Made by a program: the position numbers and the translations under genes
Notes under the pieces: model-generated
What the model was told of the DNA's origin: nothing
What the model saw: the letters and a program-made list of their open reading frames with translations, nothing else
The model's database searches: none
Virus record (IMG/VR): IMGVR_UViG_3300045919_000722
Location: 1 to 22,227 of that record
Direction: 5' to 3' (one strand)
DNA: 22,227 nt
Source: a virus
Shown: positions 6,647-19,440 of the stretch, piece after piece
How the letters are laid out: each line of letters begins with the position of its first letter
How positions within the stretch are numbered: the first letter of the stretch is position 1

Positions 6647-6847
6647 ATGTCCTGCCAGTGCTACCACATCGGTGGTCCCTTCATCGCTGAGGACCCCGAC
6701 TGCCCTGTTCATGGCCGTGAAGCCCAGCAGGAAGCCGTGAAGCGTGATAGGGTCATCAAGGACCTGGATGCCGCCCTCGACAGCGAGGAGCCTGAGCGCA
6801 TCGAGGCCGAGGCCCGTAACGCCCTCTACTACCTTCGCAGTCTCTAG
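6647..6847 (+). CDS. Small Cys/His protein, possible zinc-binding, 66 aa
   Basis: ATG at 6647 has AAGGAG at the right distance; the frame is open further upstream but has no better start. The N-terminus carries C3-x-C5-Y-H7 and later D-C-P-V-H-G (CPVHG), a Cys/His set that may bind one zinc ion. The rest is a charged helix (REAQQEAVKRDRVIKDLDAALDSEEPERIEAEARNA, in parts). Short C-x-C...CP-x-HG proteins are frequent in phages, but their function is unknown to me. Confidence 0.7.
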   Translation: MSCQCYHIGGPFIAEDPDCPVHGREAQQEAVKRDRVIKDLDAALDSEEPERIEAEARNALYYLRSL

Positions 6848-6856
6848 GAGCCCCGC

Positions 6857-7072
6857 ATGAAGACCCGTGGATTTACCCTCATCGAACTCTTGGTTGTCCT
6901 GGTGGCCATCGCCATCGCCACCACGATCTTCTATCAGCTGGGCTACGGTCACAGCACCGAACATGCCCGAGCCGGCCACTTCGAGTGCAAGGGCGGCTTC
7001 ACCTTCAAGGTGGAGGAGAACGGCGACGCCCGGCCTGCCACCAACACCGAGGTCGCTCAAGCGAAGTGCTGA
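6857..7072 (+). CDS. Type IV prepilin-like protein, 71 aa
   Basis: ATG at 6857 has AGGAG nine bases ahead. Residues 1-5 (MKTRG) form a short basic leader ending in Gly, followed by FTLIELLVVLVAIAIA. This is an exact class III (prepilin) signal: cleavage after G5 by a PilD-type peptidase, Phe at +1 and Glu at +5 (E10), then the hydrophobic assembly helix. The remaining 45 or so residues form a small periplasmic domain with C44 and C71, a possible disulfide, ending in RPATNTEVAQAKC. It is far shorter than a normal major pilin or pseudopilin. The next gene repeats its C-terminal domain. A phage pilin mimic could enter the host type IV pilus or type II secretion machinery; that is inference. Confidence 0.85.
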   Translation: MKTRGFTLIELLVVLVAIAIATTIFYQLGYGHSTEHARAGHFECKGGFTFKVEENGDARPATNTEVAQAKC

Positions 7073-7079
7073 GGTCTAC

Positions 7080-7292
7080 ATGAACAAGTACATCCCTACA
7101 TCCGCTGAAGTGCTGATCATTGTCGCGCTTGCAGCCGGTGCTGCCGTTGCCATCATACGGGCAGCGATACCTACCATGACCGTCCCCAAGGCAAAACTCG
7201 AGTTTCAGTGCAAGAACGGGGTGGCCTTCGTGCTGGATGAGGATGGCGTACGCCCTGCCACCGACCGCGAGGTGGCTTCGGCCAAGTGCTGA
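7080..7292 (+). CDS. TM-anchored paralogue of the prepilin-like protein's C-terminal domain
   Basis: ATG at 7080 (GAGG seven bases ahead) is the sensible start of a frame open further upstream. The 70-residue product has one TM segment (about residues 10-31, AEVLIIVALAAGAAVAII) without a prepilin motif. Its C-terminal domain aligns with that of the preceding gene: F-x-CK-x-G then RPAT-x2-EVA-x-AKC, about 17 identities in 30 positions, with both cysteines kept (C44, C70). The two genes thus arose by duplication, with different membrane anchors. The domain would face the periplasm in both. Function unknown. The stop overlaps the next start (TGATG). Confidence 0.8.
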   Translation: MNKYIPTSAEVLIIVALAAGAAVAIIRAAIPTMTVPKAKLEFQCKNGVAFVLDEDGVRPATDREVASAKC

Positions 7293-8242: not shown

Positions 8243-8902
8243 ATGAACACCCCACACCGCTTCGACAAGCTGCTCATCTCGGCACGGTACTGGCTGCTCG
8301 GTATGGCCGAACATGATCCAGAATACTTCAAGGTCATCGAGGCACTGGAGCTGGGATTGGTCCACCATGATGGCCACCGCAACGGTGGTGATCCCGAGTT
8401 CATCCACCAGCTCGGCATCTTCCACTACCTGCGGACGCTACACAAGCACATCAAGAACCCGAAGACGGTGTACAAGCTCGTGTTTCTGCACGATGCCCTG
8501 GAAGATCCGAACCAGAAGACGAAGGCCTTCATCACGCCGGCAGAGATCGAGGAAGCTTTCGGTACCGCCTTCCTCGTCAAGCTGAAGAAGATGTCGAAGG
8601 AGATCCTCGGTCAGAAGAACCCCGACTTTTCGCTCGATGCAGTCTTCGATGACGAGGACACCAGCGTCGCCAAGGGCGGTGACCGTGTCGACAATGTCAC
8701 CAGCATGGTCGGCGTCTTCAAGCGGTCTCGGTTGGAACGCTACGTCAAGGAGACGATGGAGGAGTTCCTACCCAGGCTGAAGAAGGCCCGTCGGAAGTTT
8801 GCCTCGCAGGAAGCCATCTACGAGAACATCAAGATGGAGCTCATCGGCACCATCACCCTGATCGGCCACATCCTGGAAGGATACGAACCACATGAAGCTT
8901 GA
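8243..8902 (+). CDS. HD-domain (p)ppGpp hydrolase-like protein (SpoT/MESH1 type)
   Basis: The 219-residue protein carries the full set of RelA/SpoT hydrolase-domain signatures: HDGHRNGG (H42 region, equivalent to H-x-G-Q-x-R-x2-G), FIHQLGI (H55), HDALED (H83-D84 and E87-D88) and KGGDRVDN (D147, N151). In SpoT and MESH1 these residues bind Mn2+ and remove the 3'-pyrophosphate of ppGpp. There is no synthetase domain, so it resembles a small alarmone hydrolase. Its likely effect is to lower ppGpp and blunt the host stringent response during infection; hydrolysis of another nucleotide is possible. It heads an operon with overlapping starts reaching the bactofilin gene, and the mRNA is probably leaderless. 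Confidence 0.88.
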   Translation: MNTPHRFDKLLISARYWLLGMAEHDPEYFKVIEALELGLVHHDGHRNGGDPEFIHQLGIFHYLRTLHKHIKNPKTVYKLVFLHDALEDPNQKTKAFITPAEIEEAFGTAFLVKLKKMSKEILGQKNPDFSLDAVFDDEDTSVAKGGDRVDNVTSMVGVFKRSRLERYVKETMEEFLPRLKKARRKFASQEAIYENIKMELIGTITLIGHILEGYEPHEA

Positions 8903-10800: not shown

Positions 10801-12759
10801 ATGAACGCCCTCTCCGCACTTTCGGCCACTTTCGCCAGTCGCTTTGCACAACCGGAGATCATGTCTCTGGAAGACTACCTGCAGCGCTGCAAGGCCGACC
10901 CGCTGGCCTACGCTACTGCCGCCGAGCGCATGGTCGCCGCCATTGGTCAGCCCATCGTCATCGACACCAGCGAAGATGCCCGACTGTCACGCATCCACTC
11001 CAACAAGAAGATCCGGGTCTACCCGTCCTTCAGCGACTTCTTTGGTGCTGAAGATGCCGTCGAGCGCATCGCCGCCTACTTCCGCAACAGCGCCGCGGGT
11101 CTCGAAGAGAGCAAGCAGATCCTGTACCTCAAGGGCCCCGTCGGTGGTGGCAAGTCCTCCCTGGCAGAGCGCCTGAAGGCGCTGATGCAGAATGCCGCCA
11201 TCTATGTCCTCTACGACGACAGCGAGAAGGACCCCGAGCGCAAGATGTCGCCGGTGTTGGACAGTCCGCTGGGCCTCTTCAACGCCTTTGAGCACGCCGA
11301 CCTGCTCGAGACGACCTACGGCATCCCCCGCCGCTACCTCAGCACCGTCATGTCTGGCTGGGCCCAGCAGAAGCTGCAGGAGTTCGGCGGCGACATCACC
11401 AAGTTCAAGGTCATCAAGGTCTTCCCGAACAAGGACAGCCAGCTCGGCATCATGAAGGTTGAGCCGGGCGACGAGAACAACCAGGACGTCTCGGTGCTCA
11501 TCGGCAAGACCGACATCCGCAAGCTCGAGAAGTTCCCGCAGAACCACCCGTACTCGTACAGCTACAGCGGCGGCCTGAACCGCACCAACCAGGGCCTGAT
11601 GGACTTTGCCGAGATGTTCAAGGCCAACATCAAGACGCTGAACCCGCTGCTGATGGCCACCCAGGAACACAACTACCAGGGCACCGAAGCCATCCCCGCC
11701 ATGCCGTACACCGGCATCATCATGGCCCACTCCAACGAGAGCGAGTGGTTCAACTTCCGCAACAACAAGACCAACGAGGCCTTCCTGGACCGGGTCTACA
11801 TCGTCGATGTGCCGTATTGCCTGCGCACCGATGAAGAGATCCGCATCTACGAGAAGATGCTGGGCGGCTCCAGCCTGTCGACGGCGCCGTGCGCCCCTGG
11901 CACCCTGAAGATGCTGGCGCAGTGGTCGATCCTGACCCGCCTGAAGAAGCCCGACAACAGCACGATCTATGCCAAGCTGCGGGTCTACAACGGCGACAAT
12001 GTCAAGGACACGATGCCCAACGCCAAGCCGTTCGAGGAGTACAAGGCCCTGGCCGGCAACGACGAAGGCATGAAGGGCATGTCCACCCGCTTCGCCTTCA
12101 AGGTCCTCTCGGCCACCTTCGACCTTCGCCCTGAAGAGCGTCAGGCCAACCCGATCGACCTGATGTATGTCATCGAGGAGGCCGTCCGCAAGGAGAACCT
12201 GCCGAAGGAGATGACGGACGAGTACCTGGCCTTCATCAAGGACCACCTGCAGCCGAAGTACTTCGAGTTCCTGGAGAAGGAGCTGCGCACGGCGTACCTC
12301 GAGAGCTACAGCTCGTTCGGCCAGAACATGTTCGACCGCTACGTCCTCTTCGCTGCCAGCTGGATCGACGACGAGCAGTGTCGTGACCCTGAGACCCACA
12401 CCCTGCTGGACCGTGACAACCTCAATCGCAAGCTCGAGGAGATCGAGAAGGCGGCCGGCATCACCAATGCCAAGGACTTCCGGAACGAGATCGTCCACTA
12501 TGTCCTGCGCCACAAGGCCAAGCACGAGGGCAAGTCGCCCCGTTGGGACCAGTACGAGAAGATGAAGACGGTCATCGAGAAGCGCATGTTCTCGGCCACC
12601 GAGCAGATCATGCCGGTCATCGCCTTCGGCCCGAAGCAGGACAAGGACACGGAAGAGAAGCACCGTGGCTTCGTCGAGCGCATGGTCGCCAAGGGCTACA
12701 CGGAAGCCCAGATCAAGATCCTCGTCAGCTGGTTCACCTCGAACCGTAAGAGCAGCTGA
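10801..12759 (+). CDS. prkA: PrkA/YeaG-type AAA+ serine protein kinase
   Basis: The 652-residue protein matches the length (about 640) and order of PrkA/YeaG. It has an N-terminal helical part, a Walker A motif GPVGGGKSS (residues 112-120) in LYLKGPVGGGKSSLAERL, the central ATPase segment with MPYTGIIMAHSNESEW, FRNNKTNEAFLDRVYIVDVP, and the C-terminal PrkA domain (ATFDLRPEERQANPIDLMYV, LHDHLQ-like helices). PrkA proteins are AAA+-fused kinases tied to sporulation in Bacillus and, as YeaG, to stationary-phase and nitrogen-starvation responses in E. coli. The downstream genes include YeaH and SpoVR, the conserved partners. All signature blocks are intact, so the protein is probably active. Its phage role is unknown. 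Confidence 0.95.
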   Translation: MNALSALSATFASRFAQPEIMSLEDYLQRCKADPLAYATAAERMVAAIGQPIVIDTSEDARLSRIHSNKKIRVYPSFSDFFGAEDAVERIAAYFRNSAAGLEESKQILYLKGPVGGGKSSLAERLKALMQNAAIYVLYDDSEKDPERKMSPVLDSPLGLFNAFEHADLLETTYGIPRRYLSTVMSGWAQQKLQEFGGDITKFKVIKVFPNKDSQLGIMKVEPGDENNQDVSVLIGKTDIRKLEKFPQNHPYSYSYSGGLNRTNQGLMDFAEMFKANIKTLNPLLMATQEHNYQGTEAIPAMPYTGIIMAHSNESEWFNFRNNKTNEAFLDRVYIVDVPYCLRTDEEIRIYEKMLGGSSLSTAPCAPGTLKMLAQWSILTRLKKPDNSTIYAKLRVYNGDNVKDTMPNAKPFEEYKALAGNDEGMKGMSTRFAFKVLSATFDLRPEERQANPIDLMYVIEEAVRKENLPKEMTDEYLAFIKDHLQPKYFEFLEKELRTAYLESYSSFGQNMFDRYVLFAASWIDDEQCRDPETHTLLDRDNLNRKLEEIEKAAGITNAKDFRNEIVHYVLRHKAKHEGKSPRWDQYEKMKTVIEKRMFSATEQIMPVIAFGPKQDKDTEEKHRGFVERMVAKGYTEAQIKILVSWFTSNRKSS

Positions 12760-12761
12760 TC

Positions 12762-12926
12762 ATGACGGCAGGCCTTCTAGCAGCGGCGGCCTTCCTCCTG
12801 GTTATCGTGTCGGTGCTGTTTCAAACCGGCCCGTTCCACTCAACCGGGAAGATGACTGCGACGCTCATCTGTGCTGTATTTGCAGTCTTCTTCCTGCTCT
12901 ACTCGGTCAAGGTCTACACTCCGTGA
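12762..12926 (+). CDS. Small two-TM membrane protein, 54 aa
   Basis: ATG at 12762 starts two bases after the prkA stop, and the frame ends overlapping the GTG of the nucleotidyltransferase gene. The product begins MTAGLLAAAAFLLVIVSVLF (TM1), has a short polar HSTGKM turn and a second TM (TATLICAVFAVFFLLYSV). The ribosome-binding site is weak. Two further small membrane ORFs sit at 10159 and 14856 in similar junctions, so these may form a set of membrane tethers for the cassette proteins. No family recognised. Confidence 0.62.
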   Translation: MTAGLLAAAAFLLVIVSVLFQTGPFHSTGKMTATLICAVFAVFFLLYSVKVYTP

Positions 12927-13477
12927 AGCTTCGCGATCTCATACTTTGTAATAGCCACAACGATGGGACCAGATCTCTCTTTGAGAGTATCCTTGTTCCT
13001 GAAGTTGAGGCAGCTTTCAAAGATTGGAATCGCGCAGCCCCAAACGCAAGATGCGTCCTGATAGGCGGTATCGCGCTGTCGTTCTATGTCAAGCCGCGAA
13101 TGACCACCGACGCTGACCAGCTCTTTCTGTCGGCAGCCGACATTCCCACCGCTGCAGATGGTTTCAAGCGCACGAGACCGGGTGCGTTTATCCACAAAAA
13201 GACGCATGTTGAGATTGAGGTCCTGGTTCCATCAGCAATCAACATGACCGTAGAGCTTGCTCAAGTCATATTTGATCGTGCGCAGATTCATGATGAAATC
13301 CGTGTGGCAGAGCCCAGCGGCATCGTGGCCGCAAAACTTGGACGCTTCAAGCTTCGTGACCAGGCTGACATAGAAGAACTGTTAGAGCATTTCAAGATTG
13401 ACCTTGACCCTTATCCTCTGTCAGCAACCGAGCTTGCACGCTACGAGCAGCTTCGTCTACAACTGAGTAACCCATGA
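12923..13477 (+). CDS. Nucleotidyltransferase-fold protein (MNT/AbiEii-like)
   Basis: GTG at 12923 overlaps the preceding stop; AAGGT nine bases ahead supports it. The 184-residue protein has the minimal nucleotidyltransferase signature: a Gly-Gly turn (LIGGIALSFY, G48-G49), then R59-M-T-T-D63-A-D65, and a third acid in HVEIEVLVP (E97/E99). These bind Mg2+ and NTP in the fold. The C-terminus is helical (RDQADIEELLEHFKID). Related proteins include AbiEii toxins and MNT antitoxins, which modify tRNA or proteins. Codon use is visibly more A/T-ending (ATA, AGT, GAA, TTT) than in the flanking prkA and yeaH, suggesting recent insertion into the cassette. A defence or toxin-antitoxin type role is possible; no partner HEPN gene is adjacent. 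Confidence 0.75.
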   Translation: MKLRDLILCNSHNDGTRSLFESILVPEVEAAFKDWNRAAPNARCVLIGGIALSFYVKPRMTTDADQLFLSAADIPTAADGFKRTRPGAFIHKKTHVEIEVLVPSAINMTVELAQVIFDRAQIHDEIRVAEPSGIVAAKLGRFKLRDQADIEELLEHFKIDLDPYPLSATELARYEQLRLQLSNP

Positions 13478-14859
13478 CGACAAAGCCACCAGTCTCAGCG
13501 ACCTTCATCTTCGTCGATCGGCGCAAGACCGCCCGAGGCAAGTCCCTCGGCAACCGCAGCAAGCTCCTTGACCGCATCAAGGAGAGCATCCGCCAATCCA
13601 AGCCTGAGGACATAGATGCCGGCGGTGTAAAGGCGGCAACCGGCGGGGCAGCCGGCGCCAAGACCTTCACCAATCCTGTGAAGATCGCCCGCAATGCCCT
13701 ACACGAGCCGACCTACCACTACGACCCCAACAGCGGCGAGCGCGATATCGTGTTGGTGGGTAACGACACCTGGGAGCGCGGTGACGAGTTCCCGGTCAGC
13801 AGTGAGGGTGGCGGTAAGGGCGGTAAGGGTAAAGGCAAGGGTGAAGGCAACGGCCCCGGTGAGGATGGTGAGGATGACTTCATCATCAACATCTCCCGTG
13901 ATGAGTTCTACAACGTCTTCTTCGAGGACTGCGAGCTGCCCGATCTGCAGGAGACCTCCGAGAAGGAGCTGCCCGAAGCCGTCATGAAGCCGGCCGGCTA
14001 CCAGCGTGAAGGTAGCGCCGCTCAGCTCTCAGTCGTTCGCTCGTACCGCAACTCCATCGGCCGCCGCCACGCCTTGACCGCGGATTCAAGGTCTGAGCTG
14101 GAAGAGCTGGAAGAGGAGCTGGCGCTGCTCGATGAGCGGCTGGCAGGCAATCCCCTTGATAGTGCTGCCAACACCCGTTGGGTGGTAGTTGCTGCCCGTA
14201 TCGAGGAGCTGAAGGCCAAGATTGCTGCCACGCCCTTCTTTGAGCGGTTGGACCTACGCTACCGCAAGAGTGAGCGAGTGCAGGTAAAGTCGGCCGACGC
14301 TGTCCTCTTCATGCTGATGGACATCAGCGGCTCGATGGACGAGGACAAGAAGCGGGCCGCCCGCAAGTTCTTCTCGCTGCAGTACGCCTTCATCGCCAAG
14401 AAGTACCCGAACACCGACCTCGTCTTCATCCCCCATACCGACAGCGCCGAAGAGGTCGACGAGGAGGAGTTCTTTACGACTCGCAAGAGTGGTGGCACCG
14501 TCGTCTCTCCCGCCTTTGCTCTGGCCCACCAGATCATCAAGGCCCGCTACGACACCAACCAGACCAATATCTACCTCTCCTATGCCGGTGACGGTGACAA
14601 CTGGGACTCCGACAATCCCGAGGTCATCTCCGAGCTGGAGGAGAAGGGACTGCTGGGCAAGCTGAGGCATGCCGTCTATGTCCAGGTCGGTCACACCGCC
14701 GGTGGTGGCTTCTCCTACGGTACCAGCGTCTCGCTGTGGAACATAATGCAGTCGATCGCCAAGGGCAACCCGAAGCTGCACACCGTCAAGATCGCCGACG
14801 ACAGCGCTGTCTTCAGTGCCTTCCGGTCAATCTACTCAAAGGCCAAGGTCAAGGCATGA
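13474..14859 (+). CDS. yeaH: YeaH/YhbH (UPF0229) family protein with VWA domain
   Basis: ATG at 13474 overlaps the previous stop. The 461-residue product follows the YeaH layout. A basic N-terminus (FVDRRKTARGKSLGNRSKLL) is followed by a Gly/Lys-rich linker (about 109-130) and the conserved segment DEFYNVFFEDCELPDL. The C-terminal von Willebrand A domain has the MIDAS D283-ISGS, then FIPHTDSAEEVDEEEFF, SGGTVVSPA and DGDNWDSD (373-380). In E. coli, yeaG-yeaH form an operon and, with ycgB, are stress- and RpoS-linked. The pairing of an AAA+ protein with a VWA protein recalls MoxR-VWA chaperone systems. The MIDAS is complete, so metal-dependent partner binding is likely preserved. Confidence 0.94.
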   Translation: MTTKPPVSATFIFVDRRKTARGKSLGNRSKLLDRIKESIRQSKPEDIDAGGVKAATGGAAGAKTFTNPVKIARNALHEPTYHYDPNSGERDIVLVGNDTWERGDEFPVSSEGGGKGGKGKGKGEGNGPGEDGEDDFIINISRDEFYNVFFEDCELPDLQETSEKELPEAVMKPAGYQREGSAAQLSVVRSYRNSIGRRHALTADSRSELEELEEELALLDERLAGNPLDSAANTRWVVVAARIEELKAKIAATPFFERLDLRYRKSERVQVKSADAVLFMLMDISGSMDEDKKRAARKFFSLQYAFIAKKYPNTDLVFIPHTDSAEEVDEEEFFTTRKSGGTVVSPAFALAHQIIKARYDTNQTNIYLSYAGDGDNWDSDNPEVISELEEKGLLGKLRHAVYVQVGHTAGGGFSYGTSVSLWNIMQSIAKGNPKLHTVKIADDSAVFSAFRSIYSKAKVKA

Positions 14860-14975
14860 ACATCACCAAAGAAACAGGTGCCGTTATCGGTGTATCAGTC
14901 ATGCTCTTGGCGGGCATGGCGTGTCTTGGCGCGGTAATCGCCTTCCTCTGCTACATCCCGGAGTTCTTCAAATGA
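14856..14975 (+). CDS. Single-TM small membrane protein, 39 aa
   Basis: ATG at 14856 overlaps the yeaH stop and its TGA overlaps the SpoVR ATG (ATGA at both ends), a strong sign that the frame is real. The product has an N-terminal MNITKETGA and one TM helix (VIGVSVMLLAGMACLGAVIA, continuing FLCYIP). No family recognised. Its place between two cassette partners suggests a membrane-anchoring or regulatory small protein. Confidence 0.65.
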   Translation: MNITKETGAVIGVSVMLLAGMACLGAVIAFLCYIPEFFK

Positions 14976-16438
14976 GCGACCTGTACATCACCTCTCGCAC
15001 CGACTGGACCCCTGCCCTCATCGAGCAGGCCTACCGTGAAATCGAGAAGATCGCCCACGAGGAGCTGGAGCTGGAAGGGCTGCTCTATCCGAACCAGATC
15101 GAGATCATCGGTTCCGAGCAGATGCTGGATGCCTACGCCTCCATCGGCATGCCGGTGCACTACAGTCACTGGTCCTACGGCAAGGAGTTCCTGAAGAACG
15201 AGAAGGCCTATAACGGCGGCCGCATGGGCCTGGCCTACGAGATCGTCATCAACAGCGACCCATGCATCTCCTACCTCATGGAGGAGAACAGCATGCTGGC
15301 GCAGACGATGGTCATCGCCCACGCAGCCATTGGCCACAACGCCGTCTTCAAGAACAACGAGACCTTCAAGCAGTGGACCAACGCTGGCTCGATCATCGAC
15401 TACATGATCTTTGCCCGCGACTACATTCGCACCTGCGAGCACCGCTACGGCCCGCAGGAGGTGGAAGCCGTCCTCGACGCGGCACACGCCCTGGCACCGC
15501 ATGGCGTCGACAAGTTCAAGCGAAAGCACAAGCCTCGCATGACCGAAGAGACCCGTCTGAAGAAGCTTCTTGAGCAGGAAGAGCGCCGGCAGCGCGAGCT
15601 CGACATCATCATGAAGAAGACGAGCATGATGCCAGCAGCCGACTTCATCGAAGAAGACGAGCACATGGAAGAAGAAGAGAACCTGCTCTACTTCATCATG
15701 AAGAAGTCGCCGGCGCTGGAACCGTGGAAGCGGGAGATTATCCGCATCGTCTACAAGATCAACCAGTACTTCTACCCGCAGTCGCAGACACAGTACCTCA
15801 ACGAGGGCTACGCCTCCTTCTGCCACTACTATATCATGACACGGCTGGAAGAGAAGGGCATCCTCTCTCCCGACGCCTACATGGCGTTCCTCGATCACCA
15901 TGCCGGCGTCATCTACCAACCGACCTATGGTTCGCGCCACTACAGCGGCTTCAACCCGTACGCCATCGGCTTCGCCATCCTGATGGATGTCAAGCGCATC
16001 TGCGAGGCACCGACCGATGAGGATCGCGAGTGGTTCCCCCAGCTCATCGGGCGCAAGTGGCAGGATGCCGTCAAGGAAGCTGCCTTCGAGCACCGCGATG
16101 ACAGCTTCATCCAGCAGTACCTCTCCCCGAAGGTCATGCGCGACCTGCGCCTCTTCAGTATCAAGATGGAAGTTGACGACGGTGATGCCTCAGCCATCGT
16201 CTCTGAGATCCATGATGAGATCGGCTACAAGAACATCCGCGTCGCCTTGGCTCGGAGCAGAGAGCGCATTAACTTCGTGCCGCAGATCCGCGTTGTTGGT
16301 GCCGACCTTGAAGGCGACCGCATCTTGAAACTGAAGTACGAATCCTTCATGGGTCGTGAGATCGAGGTCGAGGACGCCAACTCTGTCACTGATATGGTTG
16401 ACTTCCTTTGGGGACATCCAGTCGAACTTGATTGCTGA
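14972..16438 (+). CDS. spoVR: SpoVR/YcgB family protein
   Basis: The 488-residue protein starts MSDLYITSRTDWTPALIEQA and is close in length to YcgB (about 510). Family-typical blocks are LYPNQIEIIGSEQMLDAYAS, GMPVHYSHWSYGKEF, GLAYEIVINSDPCISYLMEE, the HAAIGHNAVFKNN block, QSQTQYLNEGYASFCHYYI and YNPYAIGF-like FNPYAIGFAI. The conserved His and Glu residues (in HAAIGHN and LNEGYASFCH) look like a metal site, though no enzyme activity is established for the family as far as I know. SpoVR takes part in spore-cortex formation in Bacillus; in Proteobacteria it accompanies YeaG and YeaH. ATG at 14972 is set by the ATGA overlap; the frame is open upstream, but that part is a shadow of yeaH. Confidence 0.95.
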   Translation: MSDLYITSRTDWTPALIEQAYREIEKIAHEELELEGLLYPNQIEIIGSEQMLDAYASIGMPVHYSHWSYGKEFLKNEKAYNGGRMGLAYEIVINSDPCISYLMEENSMLAQTMVIAHAAIGHNAVFKNNETFKQWTNAGSIIDYMIFARDYIRTCEHRYGPQEVEAVLDAAHALAPHGVDKFKRKHKPRMTEETRLKKLLEQEERRQRELDIIMKKTSMMPAADFIEEDEHMEEEENLLYFIMKKSPALEPWKREIIRIVYKINQYFYPQSQTQYLNEGYASFCHYYIMTRLEEKGILSPDAYMAFLDHHAGVIYQPTYGSRHYSGFNPYAIGFAILMDVKRICEAPTDEDREWFPQLIGRKWQDAVKEAAFEHRDDSFIQQYLSPKVMRDLRLFSIKMEVDDGDASAIVSEIHDEIGYKNIRVALARSRERINFVPQIRVVGADLEGDRILKLKYESFMGREIEVEDANSVTDMVDFLWGHPVELDC

Positions 16439-18375: not shown

Positions 18376-19416
18376 TTAGCCAAGTGTGCCAAGACGGGTG
18401 CCAGTGACCACCCATGTGATGTTGGAGTTGCCAGAGGTTGCTGCTCCAGCAGCGCCGCCAGCAGCGCCGTTGACAAAGCCAAGGTTGTAGAAAGCAGCTG
18501 ATGAGGTAGCTGGTGCGCCACCCGTTGCACCACCGGAGCCAAGGGCTCCACCCGTGCCACCCGCACCGCCTGCACAGATGCCGGTTGCGTTACTGGCAAA
18601 GCCACCGGCACCCACAGCTGCCAGAGTTCCAGTCGTACCCGTACCGGCTGCGAGATTCTGGCCGGTCGTGCCGCCCGCACCTGTAGATCCAGCACCGCCC
18701 GTTGAGACGCCGATACCACCGCGACCACCGCCACCGCCACCGCCAGGTGCCGTGTAGTAATCGGTGCTGATCGTCTTGCCAGTGCCTGAGCTGTAGGTGT
18801 AAGACCGCTTCTCTGCGCCACCGCCACCGCCACCGCCACCGCCACCGGCTACGGTGCCATTGTTGGTGATGCTGATGGCAAACTGAGCTCGTAGGCCAGC
18901 GCCGCCTGCAGAGCCGGCAACAGCGGCAACGAAGGAGTTAGCGACGATGTTGGGTACCTGAGCTCCAGCACCGCCTGCACCGCCTGCACCAACGATGAGA
19001 CCGTTGTTGACCAGCGTCAGCGTTGAGCCAGTTGGAATGGAGCCGGTATCAAAGCCGTAGCCCGCGGTAGTTGTCCCATAGAGGTAGATGCCGCTGTTGA
19101 CGGTGACTGTAGCGTTGAGCGCCGAGGTGCCGTTCCAGCCCGCCGCTATCGCGGCGGTACGCAGGTTGTAGTTTGCCGTATTGCTGGAGATGGTTGCCGT
19201 AAAGGTGAAGGTCTTTGAGGTACCGCGAAACATGCCCATCCGAATGGTGCTGCTCGTTGAGATCGGCGTTCCATCGGTAGCAGAGGTTGCCGTGGTTGAT
19301 GGCACATAACCGGTGGCACCACCACGATAATACTCTGATAGCGAGATGGGATTTACACCACCCGTAAACTCGGTTTGAATATCTGATAGCTTGAGAGCTG
19401 TGATTGGGACGGTCAT
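18376..19416 (-). CDS. Glycine-rich tail protein / adhesin-like (short paralogue)
   Basis: GGAG ten bases before the ATG at 19416 supports the start. The 346-residue protein opens with ALKLSDIQTEFTGG, SLSEYYRGGATGYVP and TIRMGMFRGTSK, an N-terminal module common in glycine-rich phage tail proteins. A beta-sandwich part (NTANYNLRTAAIAAGW, VTVNSGIYLYG) follows, then a long region rich in GG and GGG runs (about residues 140-330) and the end SNITWVVTGTRLGTLG. Poly-Gly runs like these form packed polyglycine-II helices in T-even gp38-type adhesins. It ends where the upstream paralogue continues into a further domain. Host receptor binding is the probable function. Confidence 0.82.
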   Translation of the reverse strand: MTVPITALKLSDIQTEFTGGVNPISLSEYYRGGATGYVPSTTATSATDGTPISTSSTIRMGMFRGTSKTFTFTATISSNTANYNLRTAAIAAGWNGTSALNATVTVNSGIYLYGTTTAGYGFDTGSIPTGSTLTLVNNGLIVGAGGAGGAGAQVPNIVANSFVAAVAGSAGGAGLRAQFAISITNNGTVAGGGGGGGGGGAEKRSYTYSSGTGKTISTDYYTAPGGGGGGGRGGIGVSTGGAGSTGAGGTTGQNLAAGTGTTGTLAAVGAGGFASNATGICAGGAGGTGGALGSGGATGGAPATSSAAFYNLGFVNGAAGGAAGAATSGNSNITWVVTGTRLGTLG

Positions 19417-19440
19417 TGAACTTGCTCCATTGCTGGCAGG

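Follow-up and report, generated by a model that had tools for sequence, protein, structure and literature searches.

A phage-encoded mini-pilin with a prepilin signal and a two-cysteine head, a possible subunit mimic of host type IV filament machines

Type IV pilins and type II pseudopilins share a short basic leader ending in glycine, an FTLIE motif with glutamate at position +5, a hydrophobic helix and a two-cysteine C-terminal head. The short pilin of Geobacter (geopilin domain 1, PDB 2m7g, 61 aa), the product of a cellular pilus gene, to our knowledge has no such two-cysteine head. Prepilin processing depends critically on the glycine at position -1 and can proceed without Glu5; the latter is required for homopolymer assembly, although Glu5 mutants can enter mixed filaments (PMC4471445). 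Superinfection exclusion through type IV pilus shutdown is known from the phage proteins D3112 Gp05, Aqs1 of DMS3 (PilB) and pVII of Pf4 (PilC), whose targets are the assembly ATPase or the platform in the inner membrane (PMC11436027).

The window analysed here, meaning the whole stretch of 22,227 nucleotides of a 22-kb IMG/VR virus record, encodes a 71-residue protein, P0001 (MKTRGFTLIELLVVLVAIAIATTIFYQLGYGHSTEHARAGHFECKGGFTFKVEENGDARPATNTEVAQAKC), that has the four features common to type IV pilins and pseudopilins, but with a predicted mature length of only 66 residues, a small head without known relatives and no adjoining pilus genes. The next gene encodes a paralogue, P0002 (MNKYIPTSAEVLIIVALAAGAAVAIIRAAIPTMTVPKAKLEFQCKNGVAFVLDEDGVRPATDREVASAKC, ATG at 7080). 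The features are as follows.

6857-7072, + strand: P0001, a 71-residue prepilin-like protein (mini-pilin); open reading frame above the curated cut-offs of PF07963 and TIGR02532, with relatives
6857-6871, + strand: five-residue leader MKTRG with a predicted prepilin peptidase cut after Gly5 (6869-6871); from sequence, with Gly-1 in 44 of 44 aligned members
6872-6946, + strand: mature N-terminal hydrophobic helix of P0001, Glu+5 at 6884-6886; AlphaFold2 helix at residues 8-30, Glu+5 in 42 of 44 aligned members
6977-7069, + strand: C-terminal two-cysteine head of P0001 (residues 41-71, Cys44 and Cys71), with predicted beta strands; from alignments and a model of moderate confidence (block pLDDT 59-76)
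7080-7292, + strand: P0002, a 70-residue paralogue in which the head of P0001 recurs (Cys44, Cys70) behind a membrane helix that lacks a prepilin cleavage site; from the open reading frame, alignments and a protein search of the record
8243-8902, + strand: conserved neighbour (phrog_15275), 63% identical in sister contig L094; context, from comparison with the sister
10801-16438, + strand: PrkA - DUF444 (YeaH) - SpoVR cassette, syntenic in the sister; context and not part of the mini-pilin, from profile matches and comparison with the sister

The P0001 start is preceded by AGGAG (6846-6850), and the N-terminus reads MKTRG followed by FTLIELL, as the initial annotation had described it, with the short leader ending in glycine and the hydrophobic stretch broken by Glu+5 that characterize class III signals. 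P0001 exceeds the curated cut-offs of both PF07963 (N_methyl; E = 3.2e-7, 30.1 bits, cut-off 21.2) and TIGR02532 (E = 9.5e-8, 31.6 bits, cut-off 16.3). It falls under every curated cut-off of the pilin and pseudopilin equivalog models (GspG/H/I, ComGC/D/E/F and PilA), the best being GspH (26.6 bits versus 80 required), and all of these matches are N-terminal. PHROG matches are confined to the N-terminus as well: PHROG 3433 (pilin), 13280, 11263, 10597, 27437 and 11596 have the same N-terminal motif, three of them are equally short (59-72 positions), and all but 3433 carry no functional annotation. The heads alone gave no convincing match in PHROG. The N_methyl motif is already catalogued in phages in several PHROG families, though not explained. 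At the level of sequence, the evidence supports the proposal of a phage-encoded prepilin mimic that would depend on the prepilin peptidase of its host.

Structure models of moderate confidence (pLDDT 74 and 75, pTM 0.39) gave nothing at E ≤ 0.001 in fold searches and VIA-align Z scores of at most 3.2; with model confidence at this level, no novelty of fold is claimed. Searched by sequence, the PDB matched only the pilin helix, the head having no solved relative; the family profile ranked the Geobacter short pilin, of similarly minimal length, among its best PDB matches, again through the helix only. That the head lacks both a solved relative and a fold match speaks against the pilin-mimic reading. 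A link to DUF6440, hinted at by Foldseek (E 0.2-1), found no support from hhalign, which gave a probability of less than 1% for the three sequences retrieved for this comparison.

P0001 and P0002 lie within a run of small co-directional open reading frames, followed by the phrog_15275 protein, which has relatives in jumbo phages, and then by dihydrofolate reductase (DHFR) and the PrkA-DUF444-SpoVR cassette. PrkA of the window is 53-59% identical to those of Enterobacter phage LAU1 and of uncultured phages of 630-640 kb. Because of this resemblance and the jumbo-phage relatives of phrog_15275, the window is probably a fragment of the genome of a large tailed phage. A 27-kb contig (G001) covers most of the window at 99.98% identity and adds 8.3 kb, including a 2496-aa tail-fibre-like open reading frame. 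No named phage matched the window at the DNA level, tblastn with P0001 and P0002 was also empty, nothing in the window matched Rfam at gathering thresholds, and PADLOC gave no match. Elsewhere the window encodes a Ro60-like TROVE and vWA RNA-binding protein (2476-4083), an open reading frame with a collagen-like Gly-Pro-Pro repeat (5632-6126) and, on the - strand, three consecutive tail-fibre-like genes (18376-22162), two of which share phrog_10745 and look paralogous.

A syntenic sister phage is represented by a 12-kb contig (L024, L094), in which phrog_15275 (63% identity), DHFR (53%), PrkA (75%), DUF444 (58%) and SpoVR (66%) are all conserved, and a prepilin protein 32% identical to P0001 occupies the same place. 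The start of this protein may be misassigned, because its leader of 35 residues including the glycine exceeds the range of 6-26 in the literature (PMC4471445). The leader (L024 1523-1867; CHVIDNRCGYCNACKHRR) is cysteine-rich, and its position ahead of the prepilin motif could reflect either a fusion or a wrong start. A search with the sister protein found mostly ordinary long pilins on virus-classed contigs; thus, the short forms are a subset of the pilin-like genes there. Other short prepilin proteins on phage contigs (L038, L041, L042, L045, L017 and L168) have different cysteine-containing C-termini and are perhaps further mini-pilin types.

The C-terminal head of P0001 is repeated in P0002 on a different anchor, as originally noticed: their C-terminal halves align with a local score of 87 versus 18.4 +/- 3.9 for shuffled sequences (z = 17, none of 2000 shuffles scoring as high), whereas the N-terminal halves have no detectable relation (z = 0.17), and a search of the proteins of the record with P0001 recovered P0002 as a second copy at E = 8e-8. 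P0002 matched no Pfam, PHROG or NCBIfam model. In the family alignment, it has Thr and Glu in the Thr+2 and Glu+5 columns (IPTSAEVL versus GFTLIELL) and lacks Gly-1 and Phe+1; its anchor may therefore descend from a prepilin signal by decay instead of being unrelated, although two residues are too few as proof. P0002 could be a tethered form that retains the head without a cleavable signal. The initial annotation had further suggested that P0002 could be the non-assembling partner or immunity form of P0001, and had named presence as a pair in related phages as a check. This part is unsupported: the syntenic sister has the prepilin gene and no second head copy was found in its contig, and the other phage records searched also contain a single copy. 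The identical gene pair in G001 belongs to the same phage as the window. What stands of the earlier interpretation is the prepilin mimic and its true paralogue with a different anchor, and not the pair as a functional unit.

Searching with a relative added short prepilin proteins that have a common C-terminal motif, the core form of the head (RCxxGYxF...Q..D..G.GV.C; alignments A2 and A8). A head-only search, seeded on the head of the relatives (pattern RC[IV]xGY[KS]Fx[IVQ]) with the N-terminus left unspecified, returned 47 virus loci, some with identical proteins and hence fewer independent cases, and 43 of these have an intact prepilin motif. The four exceptions are L061 (Gln+5), L078 (Asn+5), L091 (a plain helix) and L089. 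The last of these (L089 3900-4126) has an intact head behind an anchor frame with an in-frame stop (MNISFLELVIVLFIL*ILGAV), which may be due to decay, sequencing error or a recoded stop. The existence of a wide phage family strengthens the initial reading of P0001 as a prepilin mimic. The 212 pattern matches to the core head in bacterial genomes yielded no confirmed case, and therefore provide no prophage or host link.

Among named phages, the core-head profile recovered hypothetical proteins of Synechococcus phage BUCT-ZZ01 (UTS52068.1, E 1e-21), with an intact prepilin signal; Acidovorax phage ACP17 (gp002, E 2e-18), with a plain helix; Xanthomonas phage XacN1 (ORF355, E 8e-9), with a lipobox anchor; and Stenotrophomonas phage ANB28 (XMQ95060.1, E 6e-8), with Glu+5 but Gln-1. 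ACP17 is itself a row of the profile; when it was left out, ACP17 scored 2e-7 and XacN1 2.5e-8. Stenotrophomonas phage BUCTxx99 has a related member with Glu+5. Relatives with a plain helix (ACP17 gp002, L091), a lipobox (XacN1 ORF355) or a defective signal (L061, L078, ANB28) count against reading the proteins as pilins, and the head can evidently serve without being part of one. In a different account, P0001 is a tethered periplasmic effector: the head does the work, facing a non-pilus target on the periplasmic side of the inner membrane, for example to block DNA entry of other phages, any of the three anchors (prepilin signal, plain helix or lipid) can serve as its tether, and cutting by PilD is incidental. 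This is the main rival, and a serious one, because the head also occurs on other anchors, three types in all when P0002 is counted with ACP17 and L091 among the plain helices; moreover, L103 (prepilin) and ACP17 (plain helix) have the common ending QIIGANGGG[IV]PC. A mere tether, however, needs neither Gly-1 nor Glu+5, and the full motif including Glu+5 was retained at 43 of the 47 loci found blind to the N-terminus; we judge this explanation rather unlikely.

The heads of the window type and the core type have the same architecture, place, size and cysteine spacing, and hhalign relates them with 88% probability. The P0001 head alone matched a profile made without window-type members at E = 0.047 and the strict core at E = 2.2, the A2 head profile did not find the window head in G001 or G002 at E ≤ 1, and the match of full-length P0001 to A8 (4e-13) is probably due mostly to the N-terminus. 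The window head is probably homologous to the core-family head, although sequence by itself does not settle the matter; if the heads are unrelated, a separate and smaller mini-pilin group, built to the same plan, consists of the window phage and its sister. No further window-type heads were found beyond these two phages. A possible second head in G004 (10806-10928, E = 0.007) did not reappear with the head profile and was taken as a chance match.

Conservation within the family is concentrated at the signal. Gly-1 is present in all 44 aligned members and is specified by four synonymous codons, Thr+2 and Leu+3 are each present in 43 and Glu+5 in 42, whereas helix positions are far more variable; this set was gathered partly by patterns that include the motif (with E, Q or N allowed at +5), and the unbiased figure for the motif is the 43 of 47 from the head-only search. 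In the core family, pN/pS is low in the signal (0.16, residues 1-11) and in the head (0.20) and higher in the helix (0.72) and the linker (0.55) (uncorrected values from 37 non-independent pairs of core members of moderate synonymous divergence). Two modules of the core family are under purifying selection, namely the signal for cleavage and assembly, and the head; selection on P0001 itself is not measurable because no sufficiently close pair exists. The constraint on the head, equal to that on the signal, also agrees with the tethered effector. An abundant mini-pilin might instead occupy PilD as a decoy and starve the host of mature pilins or pseudopilins without entering a filament, for which the strong constraint on the cleavage region and the frequent promiscuity of prepilin peptidases (PMC4471445) could be adduced; this would leave unexplained both the constrained head and the conserved Glu+5, dispensable for processing, and we consider it very improbable. 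The conservation of Gly-1 together with Glu+5 argues for a role as a subunit of the filament, or as a ligand of its machinery, and not for membrane insertion alone.

The phages apparently rely on host machinery. A single N_methyl protein was found in each of seven of eight phage records, and neither a prepilin peptidase nor a T2SSE (PilB-type) ATPase above the cut-off was found in 13 phage records, many of which may be fragments. With no peptidase encoded in these 13 records, processing must be by the host. An intact member is present in a phage of Synechococcus elongatus PCC 7942, and the S. elongatus control genome was positive for N_methyl, prepilin peptidase and T2SSE; thus, the sole named host of an intact member could process the mini-pilin. 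The initial annotation would have been contradicted by hosts without type IV pili or type II secretion, and S. elongatus, the one named host of an intact member, is not such a host.

P0001 would enter the inner membrane of the host, its head facing the periplasm, and the host prepilin peptidase would cut after Gly5 to release a 66-residue mimic of a minor pilin. The mature protein would then engage a host type IV filament machine, either the type IV pilus or the type II secretion pseudopilus; engagement of the machine seems the most likely course because Glu+5, which serves assembly and not cutting, is conserved along with Gly-1. With its small head, presumably closed by a disulfide, it may join or cap the growing fibre, so that pilus function is altered or stopped during infection, and a possible benefit to the phage would be the exclusion of pilus-using phages. 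P0002 would be a lineage-specific duplicate with an uncuttable anchor, its head staying in the membrane. Inhibition as the outcome is suggested by analogy with the known anti-pilus proteins of phages. The mini-pilin might conversely help the host machine, promoting pilus assembly or retraction or exposing its head at the cell surface. In known systems, minor subunits that resemble pilins do promote assembly (PMC4471445), and the present data do not indicate the sign of the effect, but each matched record has just one pilin-like gene, with neither a peptidase nor an assembly ATPase, and phage proteins with known effects on pili are inhibitors (PMC11436027); such help is improbable. Interference with pili by P0001 is plausible, and we give an even chance to the reading that it is a dummy minor pilin which, once processed by host PilD, becomes part of the host type IV filament machine or jams it.

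The proposed outcome resembles that of D3112 Gp05, Aqs1 and Pf4 pVII, type IV pilus shutdown and superinfection exclusion, but P0001 would be a false subunit, where those proteins act on the ATPase or platform. In the open-access literature, no paper was found on phage-encoded prepilin mimics of this kind, and no description of phage mini-pilins as a group. It is conceivable, if somewhat doubtful, that large phages of a widespread class use a dummy subunit, matured by host PilD, to sabotage or retune the type IV pili or type II secretion of their hosts, the same head being used elsewhere on lipid or plain membrane anchors. If this is true, subunit mimicry differs from the known route, in which the pilus ATPase or platform is bound, and several phage gene families labelled unknown would gain a testable function. 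Type IV pili are common phage receptors and drive motility, DNA uptake and surface sensing. If real, a viral false subunit would be a new means of pilus control and a compact genetic tool.
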